Virus record (IMG/VR): IMGVR_UViG_3300042445_001721
Coordinates: 1-20,807 of that record
Reading direction: 5' to 3' (one strand)
DNA: 20,807 nucleotides
From: a virus
Position numbers and translations under genes: made by a program. Shown in pieces: positions 2,698 through 8,376 of this stretch. The notes below the pieces were generated by a model. That model was not told the DNA's origin. It ran no database searches and saw nothing but the letters and a program-made list of their open reading frames with translations. Positions within the stretch are counted from its first letter, which is position 1. Every line of letters starts with the position of its first letter.

Positions 2698-2727
2698 ATC
2701 CTAGCACGGGTTGACATACTGTGTCAA
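2698..2727 (-). promoter_or_regulatory. Leftward early promoter (sigma-70 type)
   Basis: On the minus strand a perfect TTGACA lies at 2727-2722 and TAGGAT (4/6 to TATAAT) at 2703-2698, with an 18-nt spacer. The expected start of transcription is about 2691, where a GTG opens the 2452 reading frame. It drives the leftward recombination/ThyX operon. The -35 box is one arm of the 2710-2728 palindrome. Confidence 0.65.
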
Positions 2728-2728
2728 C
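2710..2728. promoter_or_regulatory. Palindromic operator shared by two divergent promoters
   Basis: GTTGACATACTGTGTCAAC is a perfect inverted repeat with 7-bp arms and a 5-bp centre. The left arm holds the rightward -35 box and the right arm holds the leftward -35 box, so a protein bound here would block both promoters. The natural candidate is the XRE-type protein encoded immediately to the right (2747-2944). Binding is inferred. Confidence 0.65.
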
Positions 2729-2740
2729 TGTGTGTATAAC
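2711..2740 (+). promoter_or_regulatory. Rightward early promoter (sigma-70 type)
   Basis: TTGACA at 2711-2716 (6/6) and TATAAC at 2735-2740 (5/6) are separated by 18 nt. Transcription should begin at about 2747, which is the A of the ATG of the XRE-type gene, so its mRNA is predicted to be leaderless. This promoter would serve the rightward sigma/replication operon. Confidence 0.75.
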
Positions 2741-2746
2741 GATGGC

Positions 2747-2944
2747 ATGATTTACGGACATACACAGGTGGATATCGCTGAGAAACTCGGCATCCACAAA
2801 TCGGCAGTGTGTCGGATGCTCTCCGGCGCTCATGCTGTCAGACAGTCGACCGTCAAGCGCATCGCTGATGCAATCGGTCGCAGTGAATACGAAGTGCAGC
2901 TGTGGATCCTGTGCAAGCGTACAGGTCAGACTCTCCCAGAATAG
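2747..2944 (+). CDS. Small XRE/Cro-like helix-turn-helix DNA-binding protein
   Basis: 65 aa. Nearly the whole protein is one helix-turn-helix domain: TQVDIAEKLGIHKSAVCRML (residues 6-25) is a textbook turn and recognition helix, followed by STVKRIADAI typical of XRE domains. There is no C-terminal dimerisation or cleavage domain, so it resembles Cro or a minimal autorepressor rather than a full CI/LexA-type repressor. The ATG at 2747 is chosen because it lies 6 nt past a strong -10 box; a longer frame from TTG 2711 would begin inside the -35. As first gene beyond the palindrome at 2710-2728 it probably binds there and controls both early operons; that is inferred. Confidence 0.8.
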   Translation: MIYGHTQVDIAEKLGIHKSAVCRMLSGAHAVRQSTVKRIADAIGRSEYEVQLWILCKRTGQTLPE

Positions 2945-2963: not shown

Positions 2964-3233
2964 ATGGACACAAGAAACATCAAACTTACATGCATCGAAT
3001 GCCATCGCACGAACGCGGTGCCTTATGGTCGTGGACATCGCATCTGTGACATCTGCTCACAGCGTGAGCTCAAGCGTGAGCGCCGCCTCCGGACACAGCG
3101 CCGCATCCAGATGGTCGGCAGCTTCGTTGTGGTTGTCCTGGCTGTGTGGACAGCATGCGCAATGGCATCCGACTGGAACACTCCGAACAGTCCGGATCAC
3201 CGTGCACATCAGGCAATGCAAGCTCGTGACTGA
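2964..3233 (+). CDS. Zinc-ribbon membrane protein, function unknown
   Basis: 89 aa. Residues 8-34 hold two Cys pairs, CIEC and CDIC, a likely zinc ribbon. A strongly basic stretch follows (RELKRERRLRTQRR), then one hydrophobic segment MVGSFVVVVLAVWTACAMA that should span the membrane, and a short polar tail. The basic patch suggests the zinc ribbon faces the cytoplasm. Start ATG 2964 has TAGGA about 5 nt upstream. The 3' end overlaps the sigma factor start by 8 nt, so the two are probably co-translated. It lacks the HxxxCxxC pattern of ZAS anti-sigma factors, so a sigma-partner role is only a positional guess. Confidence 0.6.
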   Translation: MDTRNIKLTCIECHRTNAVPYGRGHRICDICSQRELKRERRLRTQRRIQMVGSFVVVVLAVWTACAMASDWNTPNSPDHRAHQAMQARD

Positions 3234-4134
3234 CGCCATCACAACATGGTCACAGTATCGGGGCAGTAGACGCACTAGCACCACTGGCCTCCTGACGCCG
3301 GAGGAGGAGTTCTTTCTTGGACGCATGGTCCAGAGTGGAGTCCAGCGTGACAAAGACAAAGCGACCGCTGAGTTCGTCAATCACAACGTCCGCATGGTCA
3401 GCGCCATCGCTAAGAAGTTTCGTGGTCGTGGATGCGAACATGAAGACATGCTCACTGATGGCATGCTCGGACTACACCACGCGGTCCAGCGCTATGACCC
3501 GTCACTCGGTCATCGCTTCTCGACCTATGCGACCAACTGGGTTCGCCAGGCTATCGGTCGCGGCATCGAGAGCCGTGGTCGAGACATCCGTCTACCGTCA
3601 CACGCCATCGCGAAGCTGTCTCACATCAGAGTGTCACGCCAGGAGTACATCGTCAAGCACGGTGAGACTCCGACACCAGCGGAACTGCTCGCGTACGTGC
3701 GTGAAGTTGTGCACACTTACCCGCGATACCTTCACAAGCAAATCGACTCACTGGATGTCAAGTCGCTGACGGAAATCCTCCAGCACGATGTGAAGCTAGT
3801 CTCAAGCATCGATGAGCCTAATGCCTACGGCCAAAGTCGATACGACTTCATGCCATCAGGTGAACCTCCTGTCGGTGACCGTCTAGACAGAGAGATTCTT
3901 TACGCGCAGCTGCGTACAGTCATGGAAGTCCTAACCGATCGCGAGATTGCATGTCTACGCCTTCGCTTTGGGTTCGATGGGTTATCTGATGGTCGCTCAC
4001 TCGAGGATGTTGGAATCCTGATCGGCTACAGTCGCGAGCGCATCAGGCAAATACAGGTGCGCGCAATCGACAAACTTCGTGTGGCCGCTGGTGCAGACGT
4101 GCTAGCGGAGATTTTTGAGAGGATGGAACTTTGA
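3226..4134 (+). CDS. RpoD/SigA-like RNA polymerase sigma factor
   Basis: 302 aa from GTG 3226; the next in-frame Met would cut into conserved sequence. Region 1.2 begins at LLTPEEEFFLGR (22-33). Region 2 (about 45-118) includes NHNVRMVSAIAKKFRGRG and RFSTYATNWVRQAIGRGI. Region 3 spans about 125-185 and region 4 about 222-290, with GYSRERIRQIQVRAIDKLR (267-285). Region 1.1 is absent. Region 4.2 keeps the Arg-Glu-Arg-x-Arg positions that read the -35 element (R270, E271, R274). In region 2.4 the first Trp of the usual pair is Asn (N104), and the position of sigma-70 T440 is Gly (G111); both matter for -12 recognition and melting. Most phage sigmas are smaller or more divergent. It should recruit host RNA polymerase to phage promoters; its specificity is inferred. 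Confidence 0.92.
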   Translation: MTDAITTWSQYRGSRRTSTTGLLTPEEEFFLGRMVQSGVQRDKDKATAEFVNHNVRMVSAIAKKFRGRGCEHEDMLTDGMLGLHHAVQRYDPSLGHRFSTYATNWVRQAIGRGIESRGRDIRLPSHAIAKLSHIRVSRQEYIVKHGETPTPAELLAYVREVVHTYPRYLHKQIDSLDVKSLTEILQHDVKLVSSIDEPNAYGQSRYDFMPSGEPPVGDRLDREILYAQLRTVMEVLTDREIACLRLRFGFDGLSDGRSLEDVGILIGYSRERIRQIQVRAIDKLRVAAGADVLAEIFERMEL

Positions 4135-7094: not shown

Positions 7095-7123
7095 TTGACA
7101 AGTGGTTTGATGTTTGGTAATGT
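7095..7123 (+). promoter_or_regulatory. Probable promoter for the ssDNA-binding-like gene
   Basis: TTGACA at 7095-7100 (6/6) is followed after 17 nt by TAATGT (7118-7123, 3/6). The -10 is poor by host sigma-70 rules. TGTCAAC at 7121-7127, identical to one arm of the 2710-2728 operator, overlaps the -10, so the same repressor might act here. A transcript from about 7130 would include the folded leader at 7135-7200. Confidence 0.45.
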
Positions 7124-7134
7124 CAACTTTGATG

Positions 7135-7200
7135 GTGCTGGTGGAAACACCTTTGGATTGGTAACTGAGCCAGCACTGTCACAGAGTGGTCGTATGACCA
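7135..7200 (+). promoter_or_regulatory. Structured 5' leader ahead of the 7216 gene
   Basis: GTGCTGG (7135-7141) pairs exactly with CCAGCAC (7170-7176). An alternative hairpin inside, GGTG-GAAA-CACC (7140-7151), shares bases with it, so the two are mutually exclusive. TGGTC-GTAT-GACCA (7187-7200) is a 5-bp stem that ends directly against the AAGGAG ribosome site at 7201-7206. This could stabilise the mRNA or control access of ribosomes. Function is inferred. Confidence 0.45.
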
Positions 7201-7215
7201 AAGGAGTAATGAGTT

Positions 7216-7716
7216 ATGGGTTTCTTTTCAAATGCCACGTTCAACGATGGCGCATCACAGTTCGAAGCAGCTGTCGCAGGCTCTTATGTCTGCCGTCTCG
7301 CAAACGTCGAGAGCATCGACCGACCATCGTACGATGATCCGAATGTTTTGCTTCCAAACTTCCGCTTCACCTTCGAAACCACTGAGTATGGCGACAGCAA
7401 CAGCAACGCGTTTCGCTTTGTAAAGTTTACGCGCCAGGGCTATGGTTCCGATAAGGCAGCACTCACTATCCTGCTCGATGGCATGCTCGGACGCCGCTTG
7501 ACACAAGCAGAGTTTCATAACCTTGACATCGACTCGCTCCTGGCTAAGGAGTGGATGGTCACTGTCGACTCGAAGCTCAACACGCGTGGTTATCAAACCA
7601 ACGCCATCGTGTCCGTTTCACCAGTCAGTGCCAAGAAGAAACTGACCAAGATCGCGCAGCCAACCATCAAGACAGATGACATCGAAGATCCCTTCGGTGA
7701 AGACGCCAGCGAGTAA
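7216..7716 (+). CDS. Probable phage ssDNA-binding-like protein (DUF669-like layout)
   Basis: 166 aa. After a short start (MGFFSNATFNDGASQFE) come beta-rich segments: GSYVCRLANVE, LPNFRFTFETTEYGD, FRFVKFTRQGYGSDK, then a helix LTILLDGMLGRRLT and IDSLLAKEWMVTVDSKLNTR. This order, with a small ligand-binding-like barrel and a dLL.KeW.V strand near the end, resembles phage DUF669-type proteins thought to bind ssDNA, and the tail ends in the acidic DDIEDPFGEDASE as many SSBs do. The identity is not proven. AAGGAG 9 nt upstream supports ATG 7216. It has its own promoter and folded leader and is followed by a strong terminator, which fits a protein needed in large amounts at the replication fork. 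Confidence 0.55.
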   Translation: MGFFSNATFNDGASQFEAAVAGSYVCRLANVESIDRPSYDDPNVLLPNFRFTFETTEYGDSNSNAFRFVKFTRQGYGSDKAALTILLDGMLGRRLTQAEFHNLDIDSLLAKEWMVTVDSKLNTRGYQTNAIVSVSPVSAKKKLTKIAQPTIKTDDIEDPFGEDASE

Positions 7717-7803: not shown

Positions 7804-8376
7804 ATGTCGAAGAACACAAATATTGAGGAGCGAACACAACTCCTGGTGCAAATCAAGGAACTCAGAGCTGCTGGTAACAGCATCAGTCGAACCGCGCAGA
7901 TCATGAAGATGACACGCGGCACAGTCCAGCGATGGATCAATGAAGAAAAGCCAGACAGGGTAGTCAAGAAAATGGACCCGTACATTTCGCTCGATGACAA
8001 AACCGCAATCGTCATAAAGTGGGCGGAGCTTATTGGCAGTGGTGAGACACGAAGCAAAGCAGCCGAATCAGTCGGTTATCCGACAATGATGCTAAATCGA
8101 TGGCTGATGTCAGAACCTGCACTGCGTGTCGAGTTTCAGGCTTCGGTCGGGAAGACACAAAACAATTACGGTGGCCGTAAGAGCTTCGAGGCAATCCTTG
8201 CAGAAGTGCGCGCAGGACGTCCTGTGTGGCGTGATGGCGGTCGTTTCAAGCTTCAACTGGTAGAAGCTGCACTCATGCGATACGAGCTCGATGGCGCGAA
8301 TGTGTGGCGATGCAAGGGGTTTGCGACACTATCAGGCAATGATGTCCTGGCGAGAGATTGGACGGTGATCGAATGA
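7804..8376 (+). CDS. Helix-turn-helix protein fused to a Tad2/DUF2829-like domain
   Basis: 190 aa in three parts. Residues about 12-46 form a resolvase/transposase-type HTH (SISRTAQIMKMTRGTVQRWI). Residues about 62-100 look like a second HTH (TRSKAAESVGYPTMMLNRWL). Residues 127-190 repeat the layout of the small Tad2-like proteins at 789-1118 and 8373-8618: SFEAILAEVRAGRPVWRD, a beta middle, then VLARDWTVIE at the very end. AAGGGGAG 5 nt upstream supports ATG 7804. It overlaps the next gene by 4 nt. The build suggests a DNA-binding regulator (or a small-terminase-like protein) with a nucleotide-type ligand sensor; I know no named homologue. DNA target and ligand are unknown. Confidence 0.6.
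   Translation: MSKNTNIEERTQLLVQIKELRAAGNSISRTAQIMKMTRGTVQRWINEEKPDRVVKKMDPYISLDDKTAIVIKWAELIGSGETRSKAAESVGYPTMMLNRWLMSEPALRVEFQASVGKTQNNYGGRKSFEAILAEVRAGRPVWRDGGRFKLQLVEAALMRYELDGANVWRCKGFATLSGNDVLARDWTVIE

Follow-up and report, generated by a model that had tools for sequence, protein, structure and literature searches.

The window analysed here (20,807 bases of an IMG/VR virus record, from an uncultivated virus of bacteria) encodes a sigma-70 family factor which, judged from its sequence, is a group-2-like sigma and not an RpoD. The protein is under purifying selection, and N104 and its other odd residues probably make it a weaker opener of DNA without giving it a new start signal to recognise. 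With slightly better than even confidence, we lean towards a working group-2-like sigma that would use sigma-70-type promoters with TTGACA, in which N104 would be a weak wedge and the unusual -10 element of the late promoter would owe its shape to an overlapping operator. This explanation is built on the gene, the gene order, the purifying selection and the conservation described below.

Genome context and candidate host

The gene order is siphophage-like, with ThyX and ERF genes leftward and genes for an HTH protein, a small CxxC protein, the sigma, a nuclease-like protein, a primase-like protein and a helicase rightward, followed by terminase, portal, protease and major head protein. The gene after sigma resembles a VRR-NUC nuclease by eye, with no family match, and no integrase was found among the matches made in the window. 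Related records reach 35 kb, and the longest (G001) repeats part of the gene order at a spacing of ~30.5 kb; a genome size of about 30 kb is only a guess, because the repeat copies are just about 81% identical at the exact offset.

Relatives of the large terminase (TerL), at ~32-57% identity, were found in 20 of 291 Armatimonadota genomes, and one GTDB-wide TerL scan returned Armatimonadota only. Portal and other phage genes gave weak or no match to the Armatimonadota prophages carrying these TerL relatives. Armatimonadota are thus possibly the host, as a lead and not a result. A tRNA-Ser(gct) gene lies downstream of the lysin-like gene in two type B relatives (L084:6160-6244 and L090:12625-12709), a possible host clue. 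Directly upstream of the lysin-like gene there is a stem-loop, CGCCTCCAG/CTGGAGGCG, conserved in all types (in L074, upstream of 6390).

Identity and class of the sigma factor

The open reading frame (GTG start at 3226, TGA stop at 4134, 302 aa) overlaps both neighbours in an operon-like arrangement. Both sigma-70 domains, region 2 and region 4, are present: Pfam sigma70_r2 (PF04542; 58.2 bits, E 7e-16) and sigma70_r4 (PF04545; 47.5 bits, E 1e-12) scored above their cut-offs, as did TIGR02937 (87.1 vs 42.9), and among proteins of solved structure SigA gave the best match (E 6e-38). The initial annotation had described a full RpoD-like sigma with regions 1.2 to 4.2. The sigma domains and the likeness to SigA hold, but the protein is not a full RpoD because region 1.1 is absent, and it scores under every RpoD cut-off (TIGR02393, 155.5 vs 354; NF006666, 160 vs 572). 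Region 1.2 stays below threshold in Pfam (17.1 vs 22 bits) but is alignable with region 1.2 of Armatimonadota sigmas, and a low-confidence structure model predicts two helices there. The Pfam model of region 3 gave no match; the residues align, but domain 3 carries an insertion. The AlphaFold model of the protein (mean pLDDT 60) was too weak for a fold search. In primary sigmas, W256, W257 and E281 (Taq numbering) are 100% conserved across 1002 sequences (PMC4593229); here the W433/W434 dyad is broken by N104, and E458 is replaced by A129. Compared with SigA/RpoD, the phage protein shares, as far as it can be aligned, the domain order 1.2-4.2, the RERIRQ helix and many residues of the -10 pocket, but lacks region 1.1 and carries W433N, T440G, V454S and E458A.

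The family is conserved in 72 loci and in further new contigs. By sigma identity to the window, 83 contigs were typed as A (54; mostly 94-100%), B (10; about 82%) or C (19; 62-63%), and none of the 80 viral-contig relatives kept fell below 62%. Between types, dN and dS were 0.31 and 1.87 (A-C) and 0.12 and 1.18 (A-B), and dN/dS of about 0.1-0.17 places the protein under purifying selection. No stop codons were present in the full-length copies checked. The features discussed are collected in Table 1.

Table 1. Positions of the sigma gene, its neighbours, its promoter-reading residues and the putative regulatory sites in the window
Feature	Position	Strand	Basis or remarks
Early leftward promoter, TTGACA-18-TAGGAT with TGC extension	2698..2727	-	Putative promoter activity
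Operator-like palindrome GTTGACA-TACTG-TGTCAAC between divergent early promoters	2710..2728		Arms conserved, centre variable
Early rightward promoter, TTGACA-18-TATAAC	2711..2740	+	Alignment; putative promoter activity
HTH (XRE-like) regulator, first gene of sigma operon	2747..2944	+	Family matches
Small protein, two CxxC motifs and hydrophobic stretch	2964..3233	+	Stop overlaps sigma start; no family match
Phage sigma-70 family factor, group-2-like	3226..4134	+	302 aa; regions 2 and 4; putative regions 1.2, 3 and 3.2; no region 1.1
Region 1.2-like segment (residues 5-40: ITTWSQYR...LLTPEEEFFLGRMVQSG)	3238..3345	+	Armatimonadota alignment; sub-threshold Pfam
Regions 2.3-2.4-3.0 (residues 96-126)	3511..3603	+	Most conserved part of protein; 87% A-C, 94% A-B
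N104 codon (sigma-70 W433 position, wedge residue)	3535..3537	+	Alignment
G111 codon (sigma-70 T440 position)	3556..3558	+	Alignment
A129 codon (sigma-70 E458 position, extended -10 reader)	3610..3612	+	Alignment; function from PMC2613000
RERIRQ (residues 270-275), region 4.2 recognition helix reading -35	4033..4050	+	Sequence, alignment
Late promoter, TTGACA-17-TAATGT, TGG at 7115-7117	7095..7123	+	Conserved; putative promoter activity
GTTGACA word overlapping late -10 (TGTCAAC on + strand)	7121..7127	-	Conserved; orientation flipped in type B

A phage-encoded group-2-like sigma is an already known kind, as in P-SS2 (PMC2784084) and S-CBS3. The best phage family match was PHROG 351, 'RNA polymerase sigma factor' (E 2e-47, residues 20-287; a likeness at family level only), and the best-listed record of the phage collection was 38.5% identical, none reaching 60% among the matches listed. 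The cyanosiphophages P-SS2 (ORF 113) and S-CBS3 (rpsD4) are likewise siphophages with a group 2 sigma of 285-300 aa. The sigma gene of P-SS2, likened here by its published description, adjoins a region with helicase, primase, ssb and thy1, and its authors infer the use of canonical sigma-70 promoters (PMC2784084). The S-CBS3 protein, which was compared by sequence, differs from ours: it is 30% identical, keeps both Trp residues, has S at 440 and reads SREAIRQ in region 4.2.

Promoter-reading residues

Alignment with sigma-70/SigA confirmed that N104 stands at the first Trp of the dyad (W433) and G111 at T440, as first annotated; the change of E458 to A129 was absent from that annotation. Retained residues are Y101 (Y430), W105 (W434), Q108 (Q437) and H126 (H455). 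Within segment 95-131, N104, W105, Q108, G111, H126 and A129 are unchanged in every viral-contig relative covering it, and all three sigma types conserve N104 and G111 together with the helix around them. The -35 helix is intact (YSRERIRQIQ), its RERIRQ core, already pointed out in the initial annotation, being invariant among the relatives found. The host-like -35 use proposed there is supported by this invariant helix and by the exact TTGACA of the late promoter (see below).

The same annotation had predicted a changed use of the -10 element, and the properties of W433 speak against it. This residue is a melting wedge and not a base reader: it occupies the space vacated by the flipped A-11, and W433A leaves binding of the -10 strand unchanged while making opening slower by a factor of two to three, or of about seven at 25 C (PMC4593229). 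Sigma-32 has His at this position; H, N and Q are described as wedges that melt DNA less well, and the ranking given is WW > HW > QR (PMC10216364). T440I and Q437H suppress a change at -12, and E458 together with H455 reads the extended -10 (PMC2613000); A129 would thus be predicted to weaken the reading of TGn.

The combination of changes at 433 and 440 also occurs in cellular alternative sigmas, which likewise counts against a changed -10 use. Eight Armatimonadota sigmas (L136, L137 and L140-L145) and the plasmid sigma of Thermomicrobium roseum (L216) have a non-Trp wedge (H/Q/F) with W434, Q437 and G440; L148 has H/S at the two positions. The eight Armatimonadota proteins also share the motif IRLP[SA]H with the phage protein, and a search of 121 Armatimonadota genomes gave L140-L144 the highest scores (162-171 bits vs <=151 for others). 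These cellular proteins differ from the phage sigma in that E458 is present in most of them (Q in L136, D in L216) and the aligned ones are without the insertion in domain 3. Among the RpoD-like cellular sigmas gathered, those with W433, L146 being counted as one of them, carry T, A, S, E or N at 440; exceptions to the pattern are L162 (Y433 with T440) and a gut phage-labelled sigma with Leu at 433 and T440. In its sequence the phage sigma thus fits the alternative-sigma pattern of the cellular non-W433/G440 group. Descent from this group is a candidate origin; in the tree, the phage sigma sits on a long branch without resolved placement relative to these proteins. Homologues in the host with the same residues acting at normal promoters had been named as evidence that would speak against a changed -10; the residue pair seen in Armatimonadota and Thermomicrobium sigmas comes close to such evidence.

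The late promoter and the GTTGACA word

Promoter-like sites (TTGACA with one mismatch allowed, spacer 16-18, TANNNT) were sought on both strands of 19 kb in eight aligned genomes. Two sites were conserved in 8/8 genomes, with -10 positions at 7118 on the + strand and 2703 on the - strand, the site at 7095 being the only one on the + strand; in a control with permuted hexamers, a mean of 0.37 sites (maximum 2) was kept in at least 7 genomes. Besides 7095 and the early leftward site, no second conserved late promoter was found on either strand of the aligned 19 kb. A weak minus-strand site in coding DNA, kept in 6/8 genomes, was taken as chance. Upstream of the lysin-like gene, o7804, o15974 and o16915 there are terminators and ribosome-binding sites, with no shared promoter. 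The early rightward promoter has C at -7 and hence lies outside the scan pattern, but is plain in the alignment. A conserved, apparently structured leader of ~90 nt (7124-7215), with no match in Rfam, separates the late promoter from the gene at 7216.

The late promoter reads TTGACA-17-TGG-TAATGT in every contig of type A (29) or C (10) that covers the site, and TTGACA-18-TGG-TATCGT (7 contigs) or TATGGT (1 contig) in type B. The exact TTGACA, the TGG extension, T-12, A-11 and T-7 are therefore present in 47/47 unique contigs with the late promoter, and its -10, at a site itself only presumed to be cognate, never departs from TANNNT in covering contigs. TAATGT matches just three of the six consensus letters, yet the three most conserved positions are kept; the earlier description of a perfect -35 with a poor -10 was thus exact for TTGACA and overstated for the -10, which has T-12, A-11, T-7 and the extended TGG. 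A single conserved late promoter, of the form TANNNT, was found in the aligned 19 kb, too few to derive from one genome the shared non-TATAAT late element that had been suggested as a check. Types A, B and C differ in their reading helix by V/I-type changes only, whereas the middle of the late -10 is not the same in all of them; this difference therefore does not come from the sigma reader.

An overlapping operator is a better account of the odd late -10 than a special sigma, as far as the sequence patterns indicate, because G-8 and T-7 lie, in all types, within a conserved GTTGACA word that also forms the palindrome at the early promoters. This 7-mer occurs 34 times in eight genomes, compared with a mean of 16 for permuted words, and 24 of the 34 copies are at two places, the early operator and the late -10. 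The early site is a perfect palindrome (GTTGACA-N5-TGTCAAC) and the late one a single copy, which is flipped in type B yet retained. GTTGACA contains TTGACA, and the early copies double as -35 elements, but the late copy does not. The word is presumably bound by the phage HTH protein, whose recognition helix (KSAVCRMLSG) is nearly invariant while the rest of the protein varies. The HTH start codon (ATG, 2747) sits 6 nt after the early rightward -10, and the transcript from this promoter is probably leaderless, starting about at that ATG (2735-2747). The early leftward -10 is TATGAT in most B-type relatives; the early elements (TAGGAT, TATAAC and TATGAT) are also off-consensus, although somewhat closer (4-5 of 6).

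Proposed mechanism and alternative explanations

In the explanation we favour, the sigma would be expressed early in infection as part of the HTH-to-sigma operon and, judging from its regions 2 and 4, would bind the host core RNA polymerase. The holoenzyme would use sigma-70-type promoters with a near-perfect TTGACA, for which the single conserved late promoter at 7095 is the obvious phage candidate, and we infer that the phage sigma, rather than that of the host, may read it. N104 would act as an alternative-sigma wedge, with slower DNA opening, dependence on strong promoters and an unchanged choice of -10 bases, and G111 would accompany it, as happens in the alternative sigmas of cells. An overlapping GTTGACA operator half-site, presumably occupied by the HTH protein, would account for the off-consensus end of the late -10. 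As a counterpoint, A129 predicts weaker TGn reading, yet TGG is invariant, which argues either for the host sigma at this promoter or for H126 being sufficient.

Indeed, the host housekeeping sigma might read 7095 under the phage HTH repressor, and the phage sigma might act elsewhere, for instance at genes of the host, or stand in generally for a host sigma in short supply. We regard this as quite possible, although on the improbable side. The site looks like a normal extended -10 promoter of the sigma-70 type, early and late promoters share the -35 and the GTTGACA word, types A and C share the same late promoter with sigmas only 63% identical, and the phage protein is without E458, the TGn reader. 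Nevertheless, all sampled relatives retain the sigma at this position (its presence in them is not independent, the relatives having been found via sigma), it is under selection at the protein level, and it is the sole transcription initiation factor found in these phages, with the late genes as its natural target.

A sigma that keeps the -35 reading but prefers another -10, so that late promoters would have a -10 of their own (TAnnGT, G at -8), seems unlikely to us. In favour of this view, G-8 is invariant in 47/47 unique contigs while the main early -10 elements have A at -8; moreover, group 1 sigmas have other residues than G111 and A129, and mutations at T440 and Q437 can suppress a -12 change (PMC2613000). 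However, the late promoter still has T-12, the base affected by these two positions, the phage protein retains Q437, W433 does not read bases (PMC4593229), cellular sigmas have the same residue pair, and a single late promoter is available. The G-8/T-7 pair is itself part of the GTTGACA word, conserved even when flipped, so that the overlapping operator explains it better. Phages do acquire host genes, and the missing region 1.1 and a region 3 below detection might suggest a decaying or recently captured host sigma with no phage role. Such a relic is very improbable in view of the uninterrupted full-length copies checked, the low dN/dS (about 0.1-0.17), the discrete old alleles and the fixed operon position.

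Sigma alleles in the phage population

The sigma gene occurs as discrete alleles within a neighbourhood that otherwise recombines, and the adjacent genes, with 0-1 fixed differences, do not follow the sigma type (L074-L092; also at the nucleotide level). Between types A and C, 78 fixed amino-acid differences were counted in sigma, as opposed to none in HTH (65 aa), 1 in the small CxxC protein (89 aa), none in the gene after sigma (120 aa), DUF3310 (83 aa) and the primase-like protein (278 aa), and 4 in the helicase (435 aa). As types were set by sigma identity, clustering of sigma itself is expected, and the finding is the lack of linked differences in the neighbours. Within the protein, A-C identity falls from 87% in regions 2.3-2.4-3.0 to 73% in region 4.2, 45% in domain 3 and 43% in linker 3.2. 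A and C share the same promoters. The small CxxC/hydrophobic protein resembled a possible anti-sigma, but the co-segregation with sigma type expected of a cognate one was not found (1 fixed difference).

HTH, o7804 and the spike are also modular, and the allele pattern is in this respect a familiar sort of mosaicism. The HTH_23 protein o7804 (window 7804-8376) occurs in two types, about 46% and over 70% identical to the window; a tie between its type and the promoter type is broken by recombinants, and it also recombines independently of sigma type. We consider it rather doubtful that A, B and C can be swapped as modules within a recombining phage population, in which DNA-reading surfaces and target promoter would be fixed and the rest would have diverged, maybe matched to different host RNA polymerases or evading anti-sigmas of hosts or rivals. 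The allele pattern is the part most worth following.

With the group-2-like sigma described here, a kind known from cyanosiphophages gains an uncultivated lineage whose hosts are possibly Armatimonadota. A missing Trp at 433 is by itself no sign of a new -10 specificity, as cellular alternative sigmas share the change. With 83 typed contigs, three alleles and one late promoter, these phages offer a natural series that may tell which sigma residues must stay fixed for promoter reading.
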